IMG/VR virus record: IMGVR_UViG_3300012931_000014
Span: 1-36,073 of that record
Reading direction: 5' to 3' (one strand)
Length of the DNA: 36,073 nt
Source of the DNA: a virus
Each line of letters starts with the position of its first letter. The stretch's first letter is position 1. The notes under the pieces were generated by a model that was given only the letters and a program-made list of their open reading frames with translations, was not told the DNA's origin and made no database searches. Position numbers and translations under genes: made by a program. Shown piece by piece: positions 4,197-36,073 of the stretch.

Positions 4197-4286
4197 ATGA
4201 AGAAAGTAATAGTACCCAATCATACTGGCTCTAATGATGTCCTGTTTTGCCATTACACCGTGTCTGGAAGGGGATTAGATGAGTAA
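4197..4286 (+). CDS. 29-aa hypothetical peptide
   Basis: ATG at 4197 follows a strong AAGGAGGAG site. The reading is MKKVIVPNHTGSNDVLFCHY, ending TVSGRGLDE. It overlaps the methylase start by 8 bases, so it may serve mainly as a translational lead-in for that gene. There is no recognisable fold. Confidence 0.5.
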   Translation: MKKVIVPNHTGSNDVLFCHYTVSGRGLDE

Positions 4287-4857
4287 TAAGAAATACCAGA
4301 TTATATATGCAGACCCACCGTGGAAATACAATGTTTTTAGTGATAAGCCACCTTGTAGCAGGAAAGCAGAAGAAGCTTATTACGAAACGATGGATTTATT
4401 AGATTTAGCAGATTTGCCTTTATGGGATATTGCTGATGAAAACTGTGTTCTTTTTATGTGGTCAACTTACCCAGCCCTACCCATCGCCTTGAAACTCATC
4501 AATAAATGGGGATTCCATTATCGGACAGTTGCATTTACATGGGTAAAGAAAAACAAAATATCAGACTCTTGGTTCTGGGGAATGGGTGGATGGACAAGGG
4601 CAAACGCCGAGATTTGCCTATTGGCTACAAAGGGAAACCCAGTTAGAAAATCAAAGTCCGTTCATTCAGTTTTGGATGATAGAATTACTAATCATAGCGA
4701 AAAACCTGAATCAGCCCGTCTAAGAATTATTGAACTCATGGGCGACTTGCCCCGTATCGAACTCTTTGCCCGCCGCAAAGTAGAAGGCTGGGACTGTTGG
4801 GGTAACGAAGTAGAAAGTGATATAGAATTAAGTGAGGTTATAAATGGATTAATTTGA
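4279..4857 (+). CDS. MT-A70 family adenine-N6 DNA methyltransferase
   Basis: 192 residues, close to the usual size for phage members. The catalytic DPPW sits at residues 12-15 (YQIIYADPPWKYNVF), with a later FMWST strand, the FTWVKK and GMGGWTRANAEICLLATKG block, and the C-terminal RIELFARRKVEGWDCWGNE that is characteristic of MT-A70 proteins (Ime4/ParB-linked type). It would transfer a methyl group from S-adenosylmethionine to adenine N6, probably on phage DNA to escape host restriction. No restriction endonuclease partner is adjacent. It is the last gene of the plus-strand unit. Confidence 0.9.
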   Translation: MSNKKYQIIYADPPWKYNVFSDKPPCSRKAEEAYYETMDLLDLADLPLWDIADENCVLFMWSTYPALPIALKLINKWGFHYRTVAFTWVKKNKISDSWFWGMGGWTRANAEICLLATKGNPVRKSKSVHSVLDDRITNHSEKPESARLRIIELMGDLPRIELFARRKVEGWDCWGNEVESDIELSEVINGLI

Positions 4858-4925: not shown

Positions 4926-4979
4926 TAAAAAAACTGCCCCCTCAAAGTATATACTAAAAATATATACCAAGAGGGGGCA
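4926..4979 (-). terminator. Rho-independent terminator at the end of the late operon
   Basis: The outer stem TGCCCCCTC (4935-4943) pairs perfectly with GAGGGGGCA (4971-4979). The inner stem GTATATA (4947-4953) pairs with TATATAC (4961-4967), and a 3x3 internal loop separates the two. Read on the minus strand, the hairpin is followed by a run of seven T, so it terminates leftward transcription coming from 5306. On the plus strand no T-run follows, so any effect on the methylase transcript would be weak. Confidence 0.85.
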
Positions 4980-4997
4980 AAGATAATATCAAACTAT

Positions 4998-5306
4998 CTA
5001 CGCTTTAATTTTATCTCTATGCGGCCTCCCATTTGTAAGGTTATCGATTCTGGTTTCAGCTCTAATAAAGCGCGCATCGGAATCGGTCTCATATTTATTA
5101 ACACGGATATTTAATTTATCCATCCGTTTATCTAGTTTATAAAAACCATCTTTTACTTCATCTCTTAATAGAGAAACTTCCGTTTTTAGCTTACCTGTTT
5201 CTTCACCGGCGGTTCGATCATCTTTGCTGCGGTTTCTTAACCAACCAATTGCTGCGATAAAAACCATAATCACTGTCGCAACTACCTGTATCGTATCTCC
5301 AATCAT
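4998..5306 (-). CDS. Membrane-anchored coiled-coil protein, holin/XhlA-like
   Basis: 102 residues. One N-terminal membrane span (residues 4-22, DTIQVVATVIMVFIAAIGW) is followed by RNRSKDD and a long charged coiled coil (LKTEVSLLRDEVKDGFYKLD and beyond) with a basic end. It is the last gene of the late operon, just before the terminator, in the lysis region. The size and content resemble the XhlA/holin-accessory group, although XhlA usually has its span at the C-terminus. A role in lysis timing or in anchoring the lysin is plausible but not shown. Confidence 0.65.
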   Translation of the reverse strand: MIGDTIQVVATVIMVFIAAIGWLRNRSKDDRTAGEETGKLKTEVSLLRDEVKDGFYKLDKRMDKLNIRVNKYETDSDARFIRAETRIDNLTNGRPHRDKIKA

Positions 5307-5452: not shown

Positions 5453-5713
5453 TTAAACAAAACCCCCAAGGTGAAAACTTAGCCAAAAAGCAAAAATAGT
5501 AATTATTGAAAATAGAATCATCCAGAACCATTTGTTCGTAGCACACCGGTAGACCAGCCAGATTACATAAACAATAGCCCCCAGGGACAAACCAATAATC
5601 CAGATCCATGTCCATTTTGTTGCCATTCTGCGGAATTGATATGTAAAGGGCTCGAGCCGGCAAAGAAAATCCCGCCAAAAAAAAGTGTAGACTTTATCTA
5701 TAAAATTAATCAT
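5453..5713 (-). CDS. Two-span membrane protein, holin candidate
   Basis: ATG at 5713 has GAGGTTG ideally spaced. An in-frame TTG at 5719 is less well placed. The 86-residue product has spans at about residues 34-54 (WTWIWIIGLSLGAIVYVIWL) and 60-82 (WFWMILFSIITIFAFWLSFH), with basic residues before the first. Small size, two spans and position between the protease and the terminator fit a class II holin. The start overlaps the end of the upstream gene by 8 bases. Confidence 0.6.
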   Translation of the reverse strand: MINFIDKVYTFFWRDFLCRLEPFTYQFRRMATKWTWIWIIGLSLGAIVYVIWLVYRCATNKWFWMILFSIITIFAFWLSFHLGGFV

Positions 5714-5975
5714 GTTCAACCTCTTTAATGTCTAAATCGCCAAATAGACTCGATTTCACATTTTTAATATTCTCAGATGCTTTCTCTAGACTTTCTGCTA
5801 CGCTGGAACAGTGCTCTAAAACATCGTTGCAGGCATTGGCTACTTTCTGCAGATAATATATTTCTGCTTGTCTGGCATTCGATATCCTATTCATTTCATC
5901 CTGATAAGCAGGAAAACCGCCCGATATGTTATTAAAACTACTCACCATTTTATTTACTGTTTTCTCCCTATCCAT
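5706..5975 (-). CDS. Small helical hypothetical protein, 89 aa
   Basis: ATG at 5975 shares a base with the TGA of the upstream membrane gene (TGATG), which favours it over the GTG at 5978. The product is soluble and helical with two Cys and a heptad-like second half (VLEHCSSVAESLEKASENIK). It lies in the lysis region but has no recognised domain. It might pair with the neighbouring membrane proteins. Confidence 0.65.
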   Translation of the reverse strand: MDREKTVNKMVSSFNNISGGFPAYQDEMNRISNARQAEIYYLQKVANACNDVLEHCSSVAESLEKASENIKNVKSSLFGDLDIKEVEHD

Positions 5976-6154
5976 CACAACCTCATTTTAGATTTAATAG
6001 ATTGGATTATATTACTTTGATAATTACCCAGAAGATACGTCAACAAAGATACCCCAGAGCCCCAGATTTCAGCGATGCCTTGCCAGGATCCTATGACAAC
6101 CAGAGTAAAACCTGCTAATCCAATAAAACCATAAACTAAAATCTGTGTATTCAT
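5975..6154 (-). CDS. Small membrane protein, 59 aa
   Basis: ATG at 6154 has GGGAGG 8-13 bases upstream and joins the previous stop as TAAATG. Residues 5-25 form a membrane span (ILVYGFIGLAGFTLVVIGSW). A second, weaker hydrophobic region (WGSGVSLLTYLLG) follows, then a polar tail. In this position (after the protease, next to the two-span gene) it may be a second holin component or antiholin. Confidence 0.6.
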   Translation of the reverse strand: MNTQILVYGFIGLAGFTLVVIGSWQGIAEIWGSGVSLLTYLLGNYQSNIIQSIKSKMRL

Positions 6155-6307
6155 TTAATACCTCCCGCTAAATGCACTTTCGTTACAATATATCAAGTGC
6201 GGATTCACATAATACGTCACTGTATACGTCACTGTTCTAAATGTTAATTTATGAGTATAGATTTTATTTTCTCCATCGTCATAAATCTTTGCCCATCCGT
6301 CGTTCAT
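6155..6307 (-). CDS. 50-aa hypothetical protein in the lysis cluster
   Basis: ATG at 6307 follows GGAGGAT. The reading begins MNDGWAKIYDDGENKIYTHK and continues with a Thr/Tyr/Val alternating stretch suggestive of beta strands. The stop forms TAAATG with the next gene. No family was recognised. Confidence 0.6.
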   Translation of the reverse strand: MNDGWAKIYDDGENKIYTHKLTFRTVTYTVTYYVNPHLIYCNESAFSGRY

Positions 6308-6308
6308 T

Positions 6309-7109
6309 TTATCCTCCTAAAATTGCACCGAGTTTATCCCAGTTAATTTCTAAGACGTGAGCATCATACCCCCCGTGCTTTTTAAAACATTTGATTGCAG
6401 AGAATGGCAATAAGCATCTGCCATCTATGCCCCAATCTTCGCCCCAAGAGTTTTGAAGATTAAAATATTCAGTCTTATAATCGTGACCATAGAGAAAGGT
6501 CTCATGCCCGCCAGCGATAGAATCCCAACATCGAGGCTTTTTGAGTTTGCCGTTATCGTCTGTATAAGACCATTTATCATACCAGGGGGATCCGATTGCC
6601 ACTAGATTATTTTCTGATAGAGCTGTACATATTCCGTCAATACCATCGACAACGCGGGAATAAGATAATAAAGGTCGTTTTACTGCTTCTATATAAAGTT
6701 CGCTTGTTGGAGGTACTGGATTAAATCTTTCTTCATATTGCCATTGGCTTTCTAACAAACAACCATATTTTAATAACCATTCAAGGGCAAGTCTAGGTTC
6801 GGTTCCGCAATCCTCATTAACATAACCCCCGAGTTTCCTTCCTCCATAATAAATCCAACGTGGTGACATCCATTCTGTATAAATTCCTTTTTGAATTGTC
6901 TTACCGGTTAAAATCCCACCGATACCGTGACCAACACAAGAACCCTGATTCCCTTGATTAAGGACAAAAGGTAAAAATCCTGAAAGGTCAGACTTCTCTT
7001 TTATCTCAATTGGTTTCCTTGCAGTGATAAGCCAGTCCTTTTCATCTCTTTTGTCCTTAATCCAGCCGCCTATTAATCTATCCCTGTCATTTTTATACAA
7101 ATTATTCAC
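6309..7109 (-). CDS. Papain-like (C1) cysteine protease, candidate protein-degrading lysin
   Basis: 266 residues with a full C1 set. The oxyanion Gln and nucleophile lie in NQGNQGSCVGHG (Q52/Q55, Cys58), the histidine in GGHETFLYGHD (His202), and the asparagine in LQNSWGEDWG (Asn220), the standard C..H..NSWG order. There is no signal peptide and no obvious propeptide. The gene sits between the tail-tip genes and the small membrane proteins, where siphophages put the endolysin, and no amidase, lysozyme or glucosaminidase is visible anywhere. It may therefore be the lysin, or else a tail-associated entry protease. The GTG at 7109 is the longest start; a TTG at 7100 has a better spaced GAGGTG. 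Confidence 0.85.
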   Translation of the reverse strand: MNNLYKNDRDRLIGGWIKDKRDEKDWLITARKPIEIKEKSDLSGFLPFVLNQGNQGSCVGHGIGGILTGKTIQKGIYTEWMSPRWIYYGGRKLGGYVNEDCGTEPRLALEWLLKYGCLLESQWQYEERFNPVPPTSELYIEAVKRPLLSYSRVVDGIDGICTALSENNLVAIGSPWYDKWSYTDDNGKLKKPRCWDSIAGGHETFLYGHDYKTEYFNLQNSWGEDWGIDGRCLLPFSAIKCFKKHGGYDAHVLEINWDKLGAILGG

Positions 7110-8588: not shown

Positions 8589-9239
8589 TTACGCCTTCAT
8601 AATAAATGCAAGCTCATAGTATGTCGGTCTAATATCTGTAATAGTATCGGTCGAGGAGACTGAAGCCTGGGAATTTGAGCTCCCGCAATAAATAGAAGAT
8701 GTCTCTGTGCCGGGGTGTTTGGTTATAAAACTAATTAAATGTGTATGACCTGATGTAGTCTTTGATGTAGCACCCCCAGTAGAACCGGGATTTGTTGACG
8801 AGGTTGCAATGCCCTGAATAAACTTAGCTACCAAATTAGGCGTTCCATTATTTCCATCGCACAGATACCATCCGCTTGGTATGCTGGCCAATGTACCAGA
8901 CCACATCACAATCACTCCCGAAGGTATTGCTCCCTCCAAATTATTGACAGCAGTATTCAAATCTGAAATATGTTGCGCTGTGACATTTAGAGAAACCACT
9001 GCATCTTCCGAATGAGCATTTGCGACAGTAGCTTCCTGCGCTCTTGTTATTGTAAGAGTATCACTGCTTCGATTAGTACAGCTCACAATTTCACTGTCTA
9101 TTGTAATATGGAAAGGATAAGTGGAGGGGAATAAATTACCTTCCCCTGTCGCAACTACAAGAGTTGTATCTGAATCGCTTATACCTGCAGCTAGCGAACT
9201 AATTGCATTGTTTTTAACTTTTAAAAATGTGGTTGTCAT
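8589..9239 (-). CDS. Tail fibre protein with phage tail-collar domain
   Basis: 216 residues. After a beta-rich stem region (residues 1-95, with SLAAGISDSDTTLVVATGEG) comes a collar-type domain: GVIVMWSGTLASIPSGWYLC, then DGNNGTPNLVAKFIQG, GGATSKTTSGHTH, and the terminal DIRPTYYELAFIMKA. This matches the collar/microcystin-dependent-protein type found in receptor-binding fibres. Its start overlaps the upstream gene by 4 bases (ATGA), and its stop is 1 base before the next ATG region. It is likely the trimeric host-recognition fibre. Confidence 0.85.
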   Translation of the reverse strand: MTTTFLKVKNNAISSLAAGISDSDTTLVVATGEGNLFPSTYPFHITIDSEIVSCTNRSSDTLTITRAQEATVANAHSEDAVVSLNVTAQHISDLNTAVNNLEGAIPSGVIVMWSGTLASIPSGWYLCDGNNGTPNLVAKFIQGIATSSTNPGSTGGATSKTTSGHTHLISFITKHPGTETSSIYCGSSNSQASVSSTDTITDIRPTYYELAFIMKA

Positions 9240-9625
9240 CGATTGTCCTTATTATTTGTAATTCGTAATTTTTTGACTATAGTATCTGTCAAATAATTTC
9301 GTACCCAGAGTTCATTGGGTAATACCACCTCTAGTTTTTTAACATCACCGGCAGGTAAACTAAAGCTCAATCGTGGCGGTTCATTCACTTTTAAAATTAA
9401 AGACGCATCATGATAATTTTCAAGAATCGAGATTAAATCGCCGTCCGAATCATGAACTTCGATGATATATTTAAAAGACTTAGGATGATAAATATCGGTA
9501 ACGATTATTATTGGAGCATACGTTGTAAGGATTAAATGAGACGTTTCGAGAGTTATTTTAGTGTTTGTAGATGAACTCCCTCTGGTATTAAAGGCAAAAG
9601 TATTAAGGGGAGCAGTATTAAACAT
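9236..9625 (-). CDS. Tail-tip N-terminal domain protein, duplicated copy with extension
   Basis: 129 residues. The first 50 residues begin MFNTAPLNTFAFNTRGSSS, a pattern I know from the N-termini of baseplate proteins. Residues 51-129 (KYIIEVHDSDGDLISILENY through NEPPRLSFSLPAGDVKK to LPNELWVRNY) are a close copy of the adjacent 84-residue product at 9628-9882. The domain looks like the first domain of a Gp37/Tal tail protein. The duplication next to the collar fibre may provide two attachment points on the tail tip. Confidence 0.7.
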   Translation of the reverse strand: MFNTAPLNTFAFNTRGSSSTNTKITLETSHLILTTYAPIIIVTDIYHPKSFKYIIEVHDSDGDLISILENYHDASLILKVNEPPRLSFSLPAGDVKKLEVVLPNELWVRNYLTDTIVKKLRITNNKDNR

Positions 9626-9627
9626 AT

Positions 9628-9882
9628 CTAGCTCCGCACATCGTGTACCCTGGTCGGTCTGAACTTGCGCACTATATCGCCAGATTTGTAATCTCTAAGC
9701 CACAATTCGTTTGGTAGTTTAACATCTGATTTTTTAACATCATCGCCGCGGAGGCTGAAAACTAGCGTTTGTGGTTCGTTTGTCTTCAGAGTTAAAGACG
9801 CATTGTAGTAATTCTCTAAATATGAGATTAGATTGCCCGAAGAATCGTGTATTTCGATGATATATTTAAGAAAGGTTGCCAT
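9628..9882 (-). CDS. Tail-tip N-terminal domain protein, single-domain copy
   Basis: 84 residues reading MATFLKYIIEIHDSSGNLIS, then YLENYYNASLTLKTNEPQTL, then a VKLPNELWLRDYKSGDIVRK strand pair. It is the domain that normally opens a siphovirus tail-associated protein, here as a free-standing gene. More than half of its positions match residues 51-129 of the neighbouring product. It is only two bases from the next gene, so the two are probably translated together. Confidence 0.7.
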   Translation of the reverse strand: MATFLKYIIEIHDSSGNLISYLENYYNASLTLKTNEPQTLVFSLRGDDVKKSDVKLPNELWLRDYKSGDIVRKFRPTRVHDVRS

Positions 9883-16143: not shown

Positions 16144-16464
16144 CTAATCCAAAGCCTCCGAATATTTTATCCAAAGTTTTTCGTTCCTATTTTCAGGATT
16201 GATAATTGTTACGATCCTAAGTATTCTATTGCCGATTTTGAGTCTCCATGTTGCCTGAATATCCGTACGGTATCTGATTTCTACCTCTCCTGATATATCA
16301 CTGTTGGCCTGTAAAGACTGAAATAAAAGAGTACCTGAAAGCGGTCTTATCGCCCCCCACACCGTAGCTTGGGTTGTAAAAGTTTCAACCCACTCCCCGA
16401 AGCTATTCTGGCTTTTAATGGGGGCCTGGAGTTCGATTCTATCTTTTAATTCCCCTGCTTTCAT
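16144..16464 (-). CDS. Head-tail joining protein (SPP1 gp16-like stopper)
   Basis: 106 residues: MKAGELKDRIELQAPIKSQN, then GEWVETFTTQATVWGAIRPL, and VEIRYRTDIQATWRLKIGNR. This matches the phage head-tail joining family (PF05521 type), a beta-barrel stopper that plugs the portal after packaging. It overlaps the upstream LamG-type gene by ATGA. Confidence 0.9.
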   Translation of the reverse strand: MKAGELKDRIELQAPIKSQNSFGEWVETFTTQATVWGAIRPLSGTLLFQSLQANSDISGEVEIRYRTDIQATWRLKIGNRILRIVTIINPENRNEKLWIKYSEALD

Positions 16465-17852
16465 GGTCTGCTCCTGCCACTATAAGAAGGTCGAGTATGC
16501 TCCTGCTGTTGTCCCCTTGAATGTTTTGAGGTAAATCCCCTATTTACACCACCTCTTTTTATAGCACTGATTTTAAAGTCTGCTCCTCCTATCTTTGCAA
16601 GCATAACTTGTAATTTCCCTGTCTCATCGTATGGAATTACAGCATTACCGCCTATTTTGGCTAGTATAATCTGTTCTCTTCGTTCGAAGAATTCGGCGTT
16701 ATCTCTATGACCAGTTTTTGCTTTTATCTCGACAATATGACCTCTTTCGTTTGCTGTTTGTGATACCGAACTGCCTTGACTGGCTAAAATAACCTGTTCG
16801 TGTCCAGTCTCGGTATAAAGATTATTTACTCCCCCAAACGTATTCAAAGCATCTGTCAAGCTCTTATTGGTTAAACTTATCCAGTCTGCGCTTCTGGCTA
16901 TGTTGGAGATACGGACTTCATCGATTAGACCCTTGAAATATAGGTTTGCTAATGCTCGCCTACCTAACTGTAACGTAGTTCTGGATGTTAGTGCCCCAGT
17001 ATAAGAATTTGGTGAACCTGAAGGAGAGCCACTGACATAATGTTGAGTTACACCGACATTATTCCATACAAAAGCTAATACATACCAACTATTTACTGTT
17101 ACATTAGCATTACTATCAGTCCTGTGCCCAGTTCCTTCTAAATAGTTAAAAACAATATTAGAGCTCCATTGTAATGCATACTGAAGATTGGCTGCTGCAT
17201 CGGTATTTCTACAAATTATATATCCATCCCCAGCTCCAGTTATAGGTTGTATAGTTGCCTCTAGTGTTAGGGGTCTGTCTATAATATCTACCCCTGATAC
17301 GGAAGTAAGTGCTACCATATCATTACTTCCGTCAAAACTTTGTGCCTTTCCTACACTTCTAGTTGCTTCAATAGGTTCGTTAATTCCCTTTTTTGTGCCA
17401 TTGTTAGCATTACTTGTTGAGTCTTTAATATGTGATGTGTCTGGATTGTCGTTCATGTGAGAGACGAAGACAAAATTGGAGTCCCAAACGGCTTGAGCGG
17501 GGGTTGAACCTGTTACACCGACATAGGTAGAGTTGTCTGCGTGTGTGGAGTCAAAATAGAGATAATAAGTATTGCCAGATGTAGAGGGATTGATTTTTGC
17601 CCAAAGTTCTCCTATTTCGTTCACAGTGTCCCAAGTGGCTACTTCTACATAACATTCAGTATTGGTATCATCGGCAATAGCTAACTTGAGATTATTCGCT
17701 CCAAGCTCGTCAAATACAGCCGTTAAATCCACATCGGTTTTCCCAGAAGAAGAACTGATTAAAACAAGATGTGGGTAGTTAGTTTCACTTTCTGGAACGT
17801 CTGCTCCTGCTATGGTTATTGATATTCTTTTAGCCCAACCTGATAACCACAT
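16461..17852 (-). CDS. DUF2341 plus concanavalin/LamG-like virion protein
   Basis: 463 residues inside the connector cluster, not a usual connector. Residues 1-130 fit DUF2341 (WAKRISITIAGADV; LVLISSSSGK; TYYLYFDSTHADNSTYV). Residues 130-335 form a LamG/concanavalin jelly roll (FVSHMNDN, SFDGSNDMVALTSVSGVDII, LTLEATIQPITGAGDGYII, FKGLIDEVRISNIARSADWI). The last 120 residues hold degenerate repeats (EQVILASQG, EQIILAKIGG, LQVMLAKIGG) and a basic tail. It is likely a head or neck decoration that binds carbohydrate. Coupling to both connector genes supports a virion role. Confidence 0.75.
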   Translation of the reverse strand: MWLSGWAKRISITIAGADVPESETNYPHLVLISSSSGKTDVDLTAVFDELGANNLKLAIADDTNTECYVEVATWDTVNEIGELWAKINPSTSGNTYYLYFDSTHADNSTYVGVTGSTPAQAVWDSNFVFVSHMNDNPDTSHIKDSTSNANNGTKKGINEPIEATRSVGKAQSFDGSNDMVALTSVSGVDIIDRPLTLEATIQPITGAGDGYIICRNTDAAANLQYALQWSSNIVFNYLEGTGHRTDSNANVTVNSWYVLAFVWNNVGVTQHYVSGSPSGSPNSYTGALTSRTTLQLGRRALANLYFKGLIDEVRISNIARSADWISLTNKSLTDALNTFGGVNNLYTETGHEQVILASQGSSVSQTANERGHIVEIKAKTGHRDNAEFFERREQIILAKIGGNAVIPYDETGKLQVMLAKIGGADFKISAIKRGGVNRGFTSKHSRGQQQEHTRPSYSGRSRP

Positions 17853-24555: not shown

Positions 24556-27222
24556 TCAAAAGGTTTTAACACCCTCTGTCTCATAAATGGACATTTTGGG
24601 TTTATTAGAATGGCGGACAGCTCTATCCAATGCCATGCACAGACTTACTACTCCATCGATGCGCTGAGTAGCCTTAGATTTATCCGGTTTGATATTCCCC
24701 GCCGGATCCTGAGCGATGACAGCTGAGTCAGCATTCCACCTTAAAACTGGGTTATCGCCATGTTCTAACTTTCCGGACAATAAGGTGTCCATAAACCCCT
24801 TGGCTGCAGGTGACATACTTACATATCCTTGTCGGAACTGGACTAATAAGGGATGCCCGTCGCGTTTGTCTTTCTCATTGATAACAAATCCGTCATCCTG
24901 TAAATCTGTCAGGAGTTTAACAGTCCCCCATGGGTCATAAGCAAGTTCTTGCATATCGAACATTGCCCGGTCATCGTTTAACTGTTTTCTGATATAGGCA
25001 TAATCGATAAGATTACCTGGGGTCGTCTGGACATATCCCTGATGTACCCAGCGGGCGTATGGCACTCTATCGTGTTTTTCTTTTTCAGCGGCCATATCCG
25101 CGGGAATCCAGTAGCGCATTAGAACTTTGAATTTATCATCTACAGGGAAGACATGTGCAAGAGCGGTCAAGTCCCCACTACTTGAAAGGTCAAACGCTGA
25201 ATAACATCTTTTTCCTTTTAATTCTTCAATGTCCACCTTGCCGCCGCATTTATCCCAGTCTATTAATTTAATCCAGCGTGTCGATTGTTTTACCCAGATA
25301 TTAAGACGTAACTGCTTAAATGTGTTTTCTTCTTCGATTTTACGTTGCGCTTCCCTGAAAGCGTCACGGACTTTATCAATCTGAATTGTATGGCCTAAAG
25401 AGGGATTGACCTTGTACCAGTTCTCTTCGTTGGTCCAGTCCCAGTCAGTACCGGCTTCGTCATCCGGCGGACCGTAAATCACAGGGTAGAATGTCGGGTC
25501 TTCAATGGTTTCGTTTAGAATAGCCCTTGCTTTCTCGTGCAGTTCCCAACAGACAGAGTTTCTATCTATCCCCGCTGTTGTTATGATAAAGAATAAAGGC
25601 TGGCGCCTTGCATCCCCCGAGCCTTTGGTTAATACTTCATATAGTTTTCTATTTGGGTGAGCGTGCAGTTCATCGATGACTACACCGGAGACGTTAAGTC
25701 CGTGTTTTGTATTTACTTCTGAAGATAGCGTCTGCATAAAGGAATTGTCATTTATTAGCCAGATTCGCTTACGGGAATCATTAACCTTGCAACGTTTTGA
25801 TAGCGCCGGACTAAACCGTATCATCTGAGCAGCTGCGCCATAAACGAGCCCCGCCTGATCTTTGTCGGCGGCCGCACAATAAACTTGGGCGCCGGGTTCG
25901 TTATCTCCAAAAAGCAGGTAAAGCCCGACAGCGGCGGCCATTTCTGTATTATGTGTCGGAACCATGCCTTCGCCAGCCAGATACAAGTGAGAATAACTGT
26001 CAACTTGAATACATTTTACAGGTACGGATTCGACTGGATTGACGGCAACTATTTTTCTGAAGAAGTTTCGGGGGTATTTAATAGGTAGCAGTTTTTGACG
26101 TTCTAGTTTGCGTTTTAACTTAAAAACAGGGTTACCTTGATATGCCCAGAACTGAATCCTATATTTTAACCCGCAATCTTTACCATATAGTCTAGCCGTC
26201 TCTGCTTTGAATGACCGTTTAAATCCCAGCGTAATCAATAACTCTAATACATCAGATGCTATTTGCGATTCCGTGGTGGTGAATTCGCATTGTCCAGCCT
26301 TCGAAACATAACCATCCGAATCCATTAAACCCTGTAATAGTGATAGTCTTTGCTGATAGGATGCCCTTAGATATGAGCTAGGGATATGTTTATTATTTAA
26401 GAGGTTAGAATCACGCAAAGACCCAATAAGGGTAGGTCTCCCATTATGATTAGCCGTTCCGATTGGTGATAGAGATACCCGTACATCGAATGTACCAGGG
26501 TGTCTCGCATCCTTTTTAGGAACGGTAGTATAGTATCCAGCGTTTTCTACTTGAGCAACAAAATTGTAATAGTCTGCCTCACTCATAGTGAATTCAGCAT
26601 CATCATTCCTACCATCACCAAGCCAATAACCCAAAATATAAGGGTCAATCGGTAATGTGGCACTAGGAAGTATTAATGGTAAAGGATTAGCTATCTTATG
26701 ATTATGCCCGTTCTGATAGGCGAGCGTTTCGGCAATTTCCTTTGTGGTGTGTAATTTTGTTTTCAACCAAGGTTTATAAGTCGAAGTCAGCCATAAATGG
26801 GATTCATCCGCAATAATCTTGCTGTCATCTTCGAAGACAACCTCATAACACGGGTGACCGTATTGAATTCTGGTTGCATGGGTTACGCGACAAGTGTGAC
26901 CCTGTTCATCAAATAACTCATCACCCAGTTTAACTTCACCCATAGTAGTCCATCCGGATGGTGTAGGTAATGGAGTATCAAGTGCCAAAGCTTTACCGTT
27001 TTTCTTGGGGATCTCGATGTATACCGTGTTATATTGTCTGTATCCGTCTTCCCTGATAGTCCCGAATACATCACTAATAATCTTATGCTGCCACGGAAGG
27101 AGTTCGAACTTTCTACCTTTCCATTCACCAGTGGTAAGTTCTAAATTTTCTATGAATCGGATTGCCCTGTCCGCTTTAGCCTGACTGAATAGTGGTTTTT
27201 GGATTTCTATTTTAACGGGCAT
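24556..27222 (-). CDS. Large terminase subunit, split by an intein
   Basis: 888 residues; 540 remain after removing residues 78-425. The exteins give Phage_Terminase (PF03354-like) features: ELLPWQHKIISDVFG, Walker A PKKNGK|TEMAAAV reconstructed across the intein, Walker B VVIDELHA (D517, E518), and nuclease acidic residues in YSAFDLSSSGDL (D678), ELAYDPWGT (D763) and QRIDGVVSL (D856). It packages DNA and cuts it. The intein sits exactly between GK and T of the P-loop, so no ATPase can form until splicing. It follows the small terminase by 19 bases. Confidence 0.95.
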   Translation of the reverse strand: MPVKIEIQKPLFSQAKADRAIRFIENLELTTGEWKGRKFELLPWQHKIISDVFGTIREDGYRQYNTVYIEIPKKNGKALALDTPLPTPSGWTTMGEVKLGDELFDEQGHTCRVTHATRIQYGHPCYEVVFEDDSKIIADESHLWLTSTYKPWLKTKLHTTKEIAETLAYQNGHNHKIANPLPLILPSATLPIDPYILGYWLGDGRNDDAEFTMSEADYYNFVAQVENAGYYTTVPKKDARHPGTFDVRVSLSPIGTANHNGRPTLIGSLRDSNLLNNKHIPSSYLRASYQQRLSLLQGLMDSDGYVSKAGQCEFTTTESQIASDVLELLITLGFKRSFKAETARLYGKDCGLKYRIQFWAYQGNPVFKLKRKLERQKLLPIKYPRNFFRKIVAVNPVESVPVKCIQVDSYSHLYLAGEGMVPTHNTEMAAAVGLYLLFGDNEPGAQVYCAAADKDQAGLVYGAAAQMIRFSPALSKRCKVNDSRKRIWLINDNSFMQTLSSEVNTKHGLNVSGVVIDELHAHPNRKLYEVLTKGSGDARRQPLFFIITTAGIDRNSVCWELHEKARAILNETIEDPTFYPVIYGPPDDEAGTDWDWTNEENWYKVNPSLGHTIQIDKVRDAFREAQRKIEEENTFKQLRLNIWVKQSTRWIKLIDWDKCGGKVDIEELKGKRCYSAFDLSSSGDLTALAHVFPVDDKFKVLMRYWIPADMAAEKEKHDRVPYARWVHQGYVQTTPGNLIDYAYIRKQLNDDRAMFDMQELAYDPWGTVKLLTDLQDDGFVINEKDKRDGHPLLVQFRQGYVSMSPAAKGFMDTLLSGKLEHGDNPVLRWNADSAVIAQDPAGNIKPDKSKATQRIDGVVSLCMALDRAVRHSNKPKMSIYETEGVKTF
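25948..26991 (-). mobile_element. Intein with LAGLIDADG endonuclease, class 3 features
   Basis: 348 residues (78-425 of the terminase). It begins ALALDTPLPTPSGW, with Ala instead of the usual Cys/Ser. Block B has DESHLWLT with Trp144, block F has VPVKCIQVDS with Cys404, and block G is VPTHN with Thr423-His-Asn425, then extein Thr. This Trp-Cys-Thr set and the non-nucleophilic first residue define class 3 inteins. Two LAGLIDADG motifs are intact: LGYWLGDGR (197-205) and LLQGLMDSDG (295-304). It should both splice and home. Confidence 0.92.
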
Positions 27223-27241: not shown

Positions 27242-27739
27242 TTATGGAGCTAATTCTTTCATAAATTTCTCCATGTCATCTTCTTTCTCATCTTTTGCTA
27301 TGTTAATCCGGCCTCTACTGACAGGAGACATCCCGAATTCAATTAAAAAAGTGTGCATTTGCTCGAGACAACGATTTGCAACCGATAACAGCGGACTGAT
27401 TATCACATTACCAGCCTGTGTTTTGAGTAGATAAGCGTTCGAAGCGTCACCGCCGGACTCAATCGCTTTCTCCGTTATTTCGTTGATTTTATTTTCGGTC
27501 TCTACCCAGCGGCCGTATACCTGGCAATAAGCAGCAAGTGAAACGCGGTCAATCTTGGTGAATAAACCTAATCTTTCTAATTCAGGAACTATCCGCTTCC
27601 ATTCATTAAGAGCATACCGGTTAAGGAATTTTGGGGCTGTGGTTTTACCAGTAGGCTGAGGTTCGTTGAAATTGATGCGGTTTTTATTCGGTTCGCCTTC
27701 TTTTATCTTAATAACCGTGGGTCTTGGTCGTCTACTCAT
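27242..27739 (-). CDS. Small terminase subunit (P27 family)
   Basis: 165 residues: a basic PRPTVIKIKEGEPNKNRINF start, then GKTTAPKFLNRYALNEWKRI, VPELERLGLFTKIDRVSLAA, YCQVYGRWVETENKINE, and the NVIISPLLSVANRCLEQMHT region ahead of an acidic end. This is the P27-type TerS that recognises phage DNA and hands it to TerL. Its start overlaps the methylase stop by 8 bases. Confidence 0.92.
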   Translation of the reverse strand: MSRRPRPTVIKIKEGEPNKNRINFNEPQPTGKTTAPKFLNRYALNEWKRIVPELERLGLFTKIDRVSLAAYCQVYGRWVETENKINEITEKAIESGGDASNAYLLKTQAGNVIISPLLSVANRCLEQMHTFLIEFGMSPVSRGRINIAKDEKEDDMEKFMKELAP

Positions 27740-28940
27740 TTAATTTAACTGCCTTTTCACCTGTAAAGTCTTCCCAGCGTTTTATAATTACATCGCCGTA
27801 ATGTTCGTCTATCTCCATCATCCTGCATTTGCGTGATAGCTTCTCACAGGCAATTAATGTAGAACCTGAACCGCCGAAGAGGTCGATGATAAGATTGCTC
27901 TGCTTGCTGAATTTATCTATAAACCAGACACATAATTCAACTGGCTTCTGTGTGGGATGTAACCGTTTTCTTGTATCCTCTTTTGATAATCCAAATATTC
28001 CCTTCCATAAAACAGGGACTACTTGCCGTTTGTGTCTTGTTTTTGACCAACAGAGTTCAAAATTACTACCAAACATTTTGTCATAGCTGGAATTAGTCCT
28101 AATTCCAGCTCCCGTCTTGTCCCAAACAAACCAACTCCCAGTATTGCGATTTAAGATTCTTTCCGAGTAATAATCAGCTCCCCATAATATTATCTCTTTA
28201 CAATACTCAAATGATGCCAATATAAATAACGGGTCAAAATCTATATCATCATTAATAACATTCTCATACTTATTACCACCAGCGATTCCTTTCATATCAG
28301 AGAAGTCAGCGTCTAAACGCATTCCATAAGGCGGGTCAGTGAACACCATGTCCGCCTTCTCGCCCTGCATCAACTTCTCTACATCGGTTATAATTGTACT
28401 GTCACCGCATAAGAGCCTGTGTTCTCCTAACTGCCATAAATCGCCTTTCTTACAGATAGTCTCCACATTCTCAGGGATAGCGTCATCATCAGTTAAACCT
28501 TCTTCTGGAGTATGAAGTTGGTTCATCAAATCCTCTATCTCTTTATTATCGAAGCCTGTTAAATCCATATTGACTTCGCCGTCATCAAGTTCAGTTAAGA
28601 GGTCTTTCAATGTGGGTAAATCCCATTCACTTATCAGAGCCGACTGGTTGTCCATTAACCCATAGGCCATAGCCACCTCTTTGACATCATCGACAAATAC
28701 AACGGCTATTTTATCCCAGCCGAGTTCTTTAGCTGCTTGGTACATTCCGTTACCAGCTTCTATGATATTTGTATTCTGGTTAACTACAATCGGTTTTCTT
28801 TGCCCGTAAGTTTTTAAAGAGTTTTTTATAACTTCCAGATTATGTACCGGATGTTTACGCGCGTTTCTAGGGTCAATCTTGATAGAATTTATATCCGCTT
28901 CTAATGGTTTTAGTGATTCTATTATTAACTCGTTGGGCAT
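27732..28940 (-). CDS. ParB-domain DNA methyltransferase
   Basis: 402 residues. Residues 15-110 form a ParB-like domain (SIKIDPRNARKHPVHNLEVI; GQRKPIVVNQNTNIIEAGNG). The methylase follows: MVFTDPPYGMRLDADF (DPPY 202-205), GSWFVWDKTGAG, RLHPTQKPVELCVWFI, and the SAM-binding FGGSGST motif (355-361). Having DPPY ahead of FGGSG makes it a beta-class amino methyltransferase (N6-adenine or N4-cytosine). It is fused in operon to the terminase, so it may mark packaged DNA or guard it from host restriction. Confidence 0.93.
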   Translation of the reverse strand: MPNELIIESLKPLEADINSIKIDPRNARKHPVHNLEVIKNSLKTYGQRKPIVVNQNTNIIEAGNGMYQAAKELGWDKIAVVFVDDVKEVAMAYGLMDNQSALISEWDLPTLKDLLTELDDGEVNMDLTGFDNKEIEDLMNQLHTPEEGLTDDDAIPENVETICKKGDLWQLGEHRLLCGDSTIITDVEKLMQGEKADMVFTDPPYGMRLDADFSDMKGIAGGNKYENVINDDIDFDPLFILASFEYCKEIILWGADYYSERILNRNTGSWFVWDKTGAGIRTNSSYDKMFGSNFELCWSKTRHKRQVVPVLWKGIFGLSKEDTRKRLHPTQKPVELCVWFIDKFSKQSNLIIDLFGGSGSTLIACEKLSRKCRMMEIDEHYGDVIIKRWEDFTGEKAVKLNE

Positions 28941-30843: not shown

Positions 30844-31344
30844 TTAGTTAATAGGAATTACAAATTTCTTTATTGGTTTTTCGCAGTAAATACACAATTC
30901 GCAAGATACGCTCACTGCCTGCTCAACGTCATTTCCGAGATATAAGACTGCCAATGCAAACTCTCTACCAGCGCCAACAGCTTCATAAGAAACAACCTCT
31001 TTAACGAAGTAGTTTTCTATATAAAATACTTTACTATCAAATGCTATAATATAATGATTTTCAAGTTTAAATTCCCCTGTTTTTAATTTTTTCCACTCAC
31101 AAAATTCAGTTATAAAATTTAGTATTCCATCCTCATTTGAGTATGCGGGTTTATGCGTTAGGGCAAAGACCTGCATTAATCCACTTTCACTGGCAGTGCC
31201 ACAACTTCCAATAACCATTCCATTCACTGAGGATAACTTAGAGTAATTATCCTTCCCCTTTTCTTGGGTATATCCTTGAACCATAATAGAGTCCGAGGCT
31301 ATCTCTATTCGGTCTTCTAATATTTTGCAACAAACTATACTCAT
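30844..31344 (-). CDS. HslV-like Ntn hydrolase (proteasome beta-type), Ser nucleophile
   Basis: 166 residues lining up end to end with HslV: MSIVCCKILEDRIEIASDSI, then a YSKLSSVNGMVIGSCGTASE block like HslV's RKVRRL...AGFAGGTAD, YEAVGAGREFALAVLYLG like AIGSGGNYALSAARAL, and SVSCELCIYCEKPI like SLRIAGDICVFTN. After Met removal the first residue is Ser rather than Thr; Asp17 and Lys35 (mature numbering) sit where HslV has Asp17 and Lys33. It may form a proteasome-like ring with peptidase activity in the early phase. No HslU partner is encoded. AGGAGG precedes the ATG. Confidence 0.75.
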   Translation of the reverse strand: MSIVCCKILEDRIEIASDSIMVQGYTQEKGKDNYSKLSSVNGMVIGSCGTASESGLMQVFALTHKPAYSNEDGILNFITEFCEWKKLKTGEFKLENHYIIAFDSKVFYIENYFVKEVVSYEAVGAGREFALAVLYLGNDVEQAVSVSCELCIYCEKPIKKFVIPIN

Positions 31345-35350: not shown

Positions 35351-36073
35351 TTATTCTTTCCCCGCCTTAATTTTCACGTAACACTCACCCGGTAAGTCAG
35401 TAATCTGTGATTGTGAGTCTAGTTTCAGACTTTGCAGTACATCCCGCGGCTGCATGTCCCAATCCTCATTGCAGGCTTTGTATAAGTCGTTGACCGTCTT
35501 TATTGCCGAGGCGTCCCTATCAGCCTTAACAGGCCTTGCTTTGGCTTTTTGAGCTGCTTTTTTAACAGGTACCGGTTGCGGTGCGGTTGCCGTCTCCTGT
35601 TTCGAAGATGCGGACTCCATGGCATCGAAGTCCTTGTCTGAAGATATGATTTGCCCTTCGATTACTGGTTCGGGTTTAGTTGCTGCTGTAGCTTTTATTT
35701 TATCGGGTGAAGTTCCACCATCCGGCCAGAACTCATTGATATCATCCTCGACTTGCATATCGAAAGCGTCTTCAAGTGATCCAACTTGTAACATCTTAGT
35801 TTGCTCTCTGGCTGACGTCGCTAGTTGCGTTAGAGTCACGTCGGTTCTTAGATTCAAAACATACACGGTTTGTTTCTTGCCAGTTTCGGGGTTATTGACC
35901 TGTATAGATTCGAGCGTTAATTTAAGCGGTATTAATGCTAACCTGCCAAGCGTCTGTTTGATATGATAAGCACAGGAATTGATATTTATAATTGAGTTAA
36001 TAGAGCCGGTATCTATCTGCCATACTCCAATCCCCGGCACTTCCGGCAGGATGAAACGAAGATTCATTGTCTC
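35351..36073 (-). CDS. Recombination directionality factor-like protein (Gp3-like), C-terminal part
   Basis: Continuation of the gene whose start is at 525 (circular). The visible part runs from the internal Met (MNLRFILPEVPGIGVWQIDT) to the stop at 35351-35353. It contains SINSIININSCAYHIKQTLG, the strand IPLKLTLESIQVNNPETGKK, QTVYVLNLRTDVTL, and a Pro/Ala/Lys-rich tail (PQPVPVKKAAQKAKARPVKA). The FILPEVPG-WQIDTGS-SIININS block is the core I know from the Gp3-like family. The C-terminal 100 residues are charged and probably flexible. Annotating from 36067 alone would miss 136 N-terminal residues. Confidence 0.85.
   Translation of the reverse strand, partial: ETMNLRFILPEVPGIGVWQIDTGSINSIININSCAYHIKQTLGRLALIPLKLTLESIQVNNPETGKKQTVYVLNLRTDVTLTQLATSAREQTKMLQVGSLEDAFDMQVEDDINEFWPDGGTSPDKIKATAATKPEPVIEGQIISSDKDFDAMESASSKQETATAPQPVPVKKAAQKAKARPVKADRDASAIKTVNDLYKACNEDWDMQPRDVLQSLKLDSQSQITDLPGECYVKIKAGKE
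35951..36073. repeat. Right copy of 123-base terminal direct repeat
   Basis: Identical to bases 1-123. It is an end overlap of a circular sequence and lies within the directionality-factor gene. Confidence 0.95.

Follow-up and report, generated by a model that had tools for sequence, protein, structure and literature searches.

A xylellain-type C1A cysteine protease in the endolysin slot of a complete tailed-phage genome

Introduction

To lyse the host cell, a double-stranded DNA phage is expected to encode a peptidoglycan hydrolase. Cysteine peptidases that serve in viral lysis of the host wall are known from methanogen viruses, whose pseudomurein endoisopeptidases PeiW and PeiP belong to family C71. 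C1A (papain-family) enzymes, by comparison, have ordinary peptide bonds as their substrates.

The presence of C1A peptidases in tailed phages, including as a "lysin" or as part of an endolysin, is already known, and xylellain-type C1A genes have been published from Siphoviridae and Myoviridae (PMC10380794), even if the phage gene family has so far usually been annotated just as "peptidase". In Thermoanaerobacterium phage THSA-485A, a Bacillota phage, the lysis region contains a C1A gene (Tsac_2838) immediately beside the GH25 endolysin. Gordonia phage GMA2 carries its C1 peptidase (Orf38, cd02619) between Amidase_2/C39 lysins and the holin, directly before the latter, and its authors count Orf38 as one of four lysins (PMC4524720). 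In Alicyclobacillus phage MMB025, a C1 domain forms the N-terminal part of a 753-residue protein (CDS0095) that also contains an Rv2525c-like glycoside hydrolase and a PG_binding_1 domain, an endolysin that its authors regard as a peptidase combined with a muramidase (PMC13141910). Outside phages, the prokaryotic short C1A enzyme xylellain from Xylella fastidiosa (PDB: 3ois) provides the nearest solved structure.

Here, we describe a phage genome in which a protease of this type appears to lack the muralytic partner enzymes found in these systems. The occurrence of C1A peptidases in phages is not new; a complete genome with a C1A gene in the endolysin slot and no recognizable muralytic partner is unusual.

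Results

Genome completeness and layout

The window (the whole 36,073-bp stretch of DNA analyzed) is a tailed-phage genome of roughly 36 kb. Its first 123 bp (1-123) are identical to its last 123 bp (35951-36073), forming a terminal direct repeat and leaving a unique length of 35,950 bp. This identity of the two ends indicates that the genome is complete, and hence the missing peptidoglycan hydrolase discussed below is not an effect of fragmentation.

The minus strand encodes, in order, the small terminase, large terminase, portal, prohead protease, capsid, and head-tail genes, followed by the major tail protein, tape measure, Dit, further tail proteins, Tal, and then the C1A protease. The large terminase gene (24556-27222) contains an intein-like insert with LAGLIDADG/homing-endonuclease domains. 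Among the head-tail genes, a 463-residue protein (16461-17852) has a concanavalin/laminin-G-like lectin domain and is likely a decoration or receptor-binding protein, and two adjacent ORFs in the tail region (9236-9625 and 9628-9882) are diverged duplicates with 72% DNA identity over 97 bp. Two DNA methyltransferase genes are present, one of MT-A70 type (4279-4857) and one of ParB-domain N6/N4 type (27732-28940). The non-structural region includes a second protease-like gene (30844-31344), whose small product matches phrog_1040, "peptidase HslV family" (E 2.3e-15).

Identity and active site of the protease

The protease gene (6309-7109, minus strand) starts with GTG and encodes 266 residues. 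Its product matches the Pfam family PF00112 (E=1.8e-5; 25.3 bits against a gathering cut-off of 20.7), phrog_16701 "peptidase" (E=1.6e-18), and, in a phmmer search of the PDB, xylellain (3ois, E=2.8e-21). An AlphaFold model with a mean pLDDT of 91.3 returned the same structure as the top solved Foldseek match (E=1.9e-21, TM 0.82), and cathepsins were matched too. The similarity to xylellain extends over almost the whole protein and takes in the segment N-terminal to the catalytic domain; the two proteins differ in sequence (26% identity) and in setting, with xylellain encoded by a bacterial chromosomal gene and the window protease in a phage late block.

The catalytic residues occur in the expected Gln-Cys-His-Asn order with an NSWG motif, and the complete C1 triad noted in the initial annotation (Cys58, His202, and Asn220), together with the oxyanion Gln52, is invariant across 31 phage homologs; the active site is therefore under selection. 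Taken with the xylellain fold of the model, these features identify the product as a genuine C1A peptidase rather than a chance motif, with predicted proteolytic activity. Profile, fold, and motifs are those of C1A, ruling out a papain-fold lysin of the CHAP, NlpC/P60, or C71 type; PeiW and PeiP belong to that last family and act on pseudomurein, and no match to them was found.

The protein has a short N-terminal segment instead of an I29-type prodomain, which a Pfam scan did not detect. A simple hydropathy scan found neither a signal peptide nor a membrane segment. Peptidase_C1 was the only domain recovered by the Pfam scan, which thus recognized no peptidoglycan-cleaving domain and no peptidoglycan- or wall-binding domain, the latter being frequent but not obligatory in endolysins.

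Genes flanking the protease

As first noted from the sequence, the protease lies between tail-tip genes and small membrane proteins. Upstream is Tal (PF06605; 7136-8587, minus strand), which has a weak F5/8C-like insert; neither Pfam nor PHROG profiles revealed a catalytic wall-hydrolase domain in it, and no close relatives of it were found in viral_contigs. Downstream, five small ORFs follow on the minus strand, three of which (encoding 59, 88, and 102 residues) have predicted membrane segments. Directly 3' of the protease, a 50-residue ORF (6155-6307) has a strong Shine-Dalgarno sequence (GGAGG) and no family match. It is followed by a 59-residue small membrane protein (5975-6154) with one predicted membrane segment, a holin candidate likewise lacking a family match, and by a probably helical 90-residue protein (5706-5978). 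The best holin candidate is the 88-residue protein (5453-5719), which has two predicted membrane segments and for which no relatives were found in viral_contigs. The 102-residue protein (4998-5306) combines an N-terminal membrane segment with a probable coiled coil and matches phrog_1863 and phrog_1009, both of unknown function; its match to the Rz-like spanin family phrog_739 is very weak (E 0.06).

The late gene block is closed by a highly stable hairpin (4928-4980, minus strand) that has a T run and resembles an intrinsic terminator (-29.2 kcal/mol, z -7.1; equally stable in 0 of 200 shuffles). The next gene past this hairpin is the MT-A70 methylase, which runs in the opposite direction, convergent to the late operon.

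The endolysin slot in related phages and the probable host

The location of the protease gene, after the tail genes and beside the holin candidates, is that of a phage endolysin. The nearest capsid matches are to Bacillus, Parageobacillus, and Geobacillus phages, and two phages among these nearest capsid relatives that share the overall gene order show what fills this slot: past the tail genes, Geobacillus phage GBK2 has a holin, an endolysin, and a second holin, and Bacillus phage Silence an amidase endolysin and a holin. At the same location, a metagenomic relative (L013/L251), with a TerL 46% and a portal 42% identical to those of the window phage, encodes an M15 peptidase (E 1.6e-21) together with a PG_binding protein and a protein of holin size. 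Among the fragments whose portal is closely related, the longest (L007, 62%) stops inside the tape measure, before any lysis region. Judged by gene order, the C1A protease thus occupies the slot in which GBK2, Silence, and L013/L251 carry a wall-cutting endolysin, bearing out the endolysin position originally assigned to it.

Because the capsid and portal relatives point there, the host is probably a Bacillota bacterium, a usually walled group. At E<=1e-90, 33 of the 398 genomes in the phylum of Clostridium yunnanense contain a portal relative, compared with 0 of 198 in the phylum of a Desulfobulbaceae genome. The capsid and portal relatives speak against the host lacking ordinary peptidoglycan that the initial annotation had suggested. 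An Anaeroplasmataceae phage accounts for one portal match, and for this reason we keep a wall-less host in view as an unlikely case.

C1A homologs and their proximity to lysis genes

Two scans, using a search pattern from a three-sequence alignment (a divergent five-sequence alignment yielded no searchable pattern), located related C1A loci in bacterial genomes (75) and viral contigs (80). In the tree, a deep bacterial branch was set aside, as the multidomain bacterial proteins in it had been crudely trimmed. The nearest homolog of the window protease (L163, 46%) sits at the end of a contig, beside terminase genes, which leaves its lysis context out of view.

In seven IMG/VR contigs, a C1A gene lies near a true hydrolase. 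Pfam-confirmed neighbors of viral C1A genes comprise Glucosaminidase (L165), Amidase_2 (L182 and L200), GH108 (L186), GH25 (L193), Phage_lysozyme2 with M15 (L194), and VanY (L196). A proximity test covered 47 C1A-bearing virus records and three lysin families (Amidase_2, GH25, and GH108); most of these records had no lysin match at all, and among the eight with a match over the cut-off, six had a lysin no more than 5 kb away from the C1A gene (expected 1.9; P=0.002). Viral proteins matched in a BFVD fold search include some named peptidoglycan-binding-like, N-acetylmuramidase, and endolysin.

The named systems resemble the window locus to differing degrees. Tsac_2838 of THSA-485A belongs to the same family and the same supported tree clade, and differs in its adjoining GH25 endolysin, which the window phage lacks. 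GMA2 Orf38 shares the placement of a C1 peptidase in a lysis cassette; its sequence is very divergent, the host is actinobacterial, and Amidase_2 and C39-like lysins accompany it. The C1 domain of MMB025 CDS0095 shares homology with the window protease (blastp E 2e-7, searched in a small local database) and differs in being fused to the glycoside hydrolase and peptidoglycan-binding domains.

Many other phage C1A genes (L170, L172, L175, L183, and L187 among them) lie away from any recognized lysis gene. The family is therefore not exclusively lytic.

Discussion

Role of the protease in lysis

On balance, we favor a role of the xylellain-type protease as part of the phage lysis module, acting on envelope proteins. 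This reading draws on the fold, the conserved catalytic residues, the endolysin slot, and the terminator-closed gene block, as well as on the recurrence of C1A peptidases in lysis cassettes and their fusion to lysin domains in MMB025; the missing secretion signal and the C1A genes found elsewhere among tail or non-structural genes count against it. Lacking a signal peptide, the protease would be a cytoplasmic product expressed late along with the tail genes, and would reach the envelope once the holin candidates of the same block had opened the membrane. There, it may cut S-layer proteins, wall-anchored proteins, or host autolysins or their inhibitors, and this cleavage would help the cell to open. 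Since the gene fills the endolysin slot and has homologs in lysis cassettes and lysin fusions, the contribution of protein cleavage to lysis that was initially proposed is reasonable; the peptidoglycan-free host proposed with it is not favored. The recurrence of xylellain-type C1A peptidases in lysis cassettes and lysin fusions in itself gives this gene family a testable role.

The chance is almost even that a peptidoglycan hydrolase has gone unrecognized elsewhere in the genome, in a divergent tail protein, the tape measure, or a small ORF, with the C1A protease a mere accessory. Such an enzyme would be compatible with a place for the protease in the lysis module and would oppose only its acting as the sole lysin. 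In the confirmed lysis-cassette examples, a muralytic enzyme is found alongside C1A or fused to it. The initial remark that no peptidoglycan hydrolase is visible holds in a Pfam-profile search of the ORFs for amidase, lysozyme, and other lysin families, which recognized none among the families listed for the 53 other ORFs; these were the best 25 of 43 families at E<=0.01, a gap filled by a second scan, at E<=0.1, of the 19 ORFs that had no other assignment. Profile sensitivity limits this negative, as at least one probable lysin of the relatives, an amidase-like protein (L190) with a VVFHHTAG motif, escaped Pfam. The tape measure has a weak match to a PHROG "endolysin" (E 2.3e-6), albeit over its hydrophobic middle part. 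Against an unrecognized hydrolase, the late region past the tail genes contains no unassigned ORF of endolysin size, the remainder encoding 50-102 residues.

It is unlikely that the C1A protease replaces the endolysin entirely as the sole lysis hydrolase, whether it cleaved envelope proteins, unleashed host autolysins, or cut L-amino-acid cross-bridges. The genome is complete and has no recognized hydrolase, and the protease stands in the slot filled by endolysins in L251, GBK2, and Silence. Against this, we found no precedent, the likely Bacillota host possesses peptidoglycan, and C1A specificity is for ordinary peptide bonds. Somewhat less probable still is the full scenario of a siphophage without a muralytic endolysin, in which a papain-type protease and small membrane proteins lyse a walled bacterium proteolytically. 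If an endolysin slot did operate with a papain-type protease alone, this would establish lysis by way of a protease and extend the envelope-active enzymes by a further class.

Alternatively, the protein could be a virion protease at the tail tip, opening an S-layer or other surface protein at entry. The gene immediately follows Tal, and three homologs beside tail genes (L168, L184, and L212) would fit a virion role too; yet no tail domain is fused to the window protease, and other homologs adjoin or are fused with endolysins and holins, making this role doubtful. Least probable is a protease acting inside the cell in host takeover or counter-defense, with no link to lysis, for which the absent signal peptide and the many homologs in non-structural regions of large phages (L170, L172, L183, and L187) would speak, set against the late position of the gene and the enrichment of C1A near lysins.

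Two phage C1A homologs (L197, 3365-4234; L198, 1202-2011) have a hydrophobic, membrane-anchor-like C-terminal stretch. On a 16.8-kb Priestia megaterium plasmid (L087, 5980-7174), a related C1 peptidase gene is immediately followed by a gene for an I42-family (chagasin-type) inhibitor, a possible protease/inhibitor pair.
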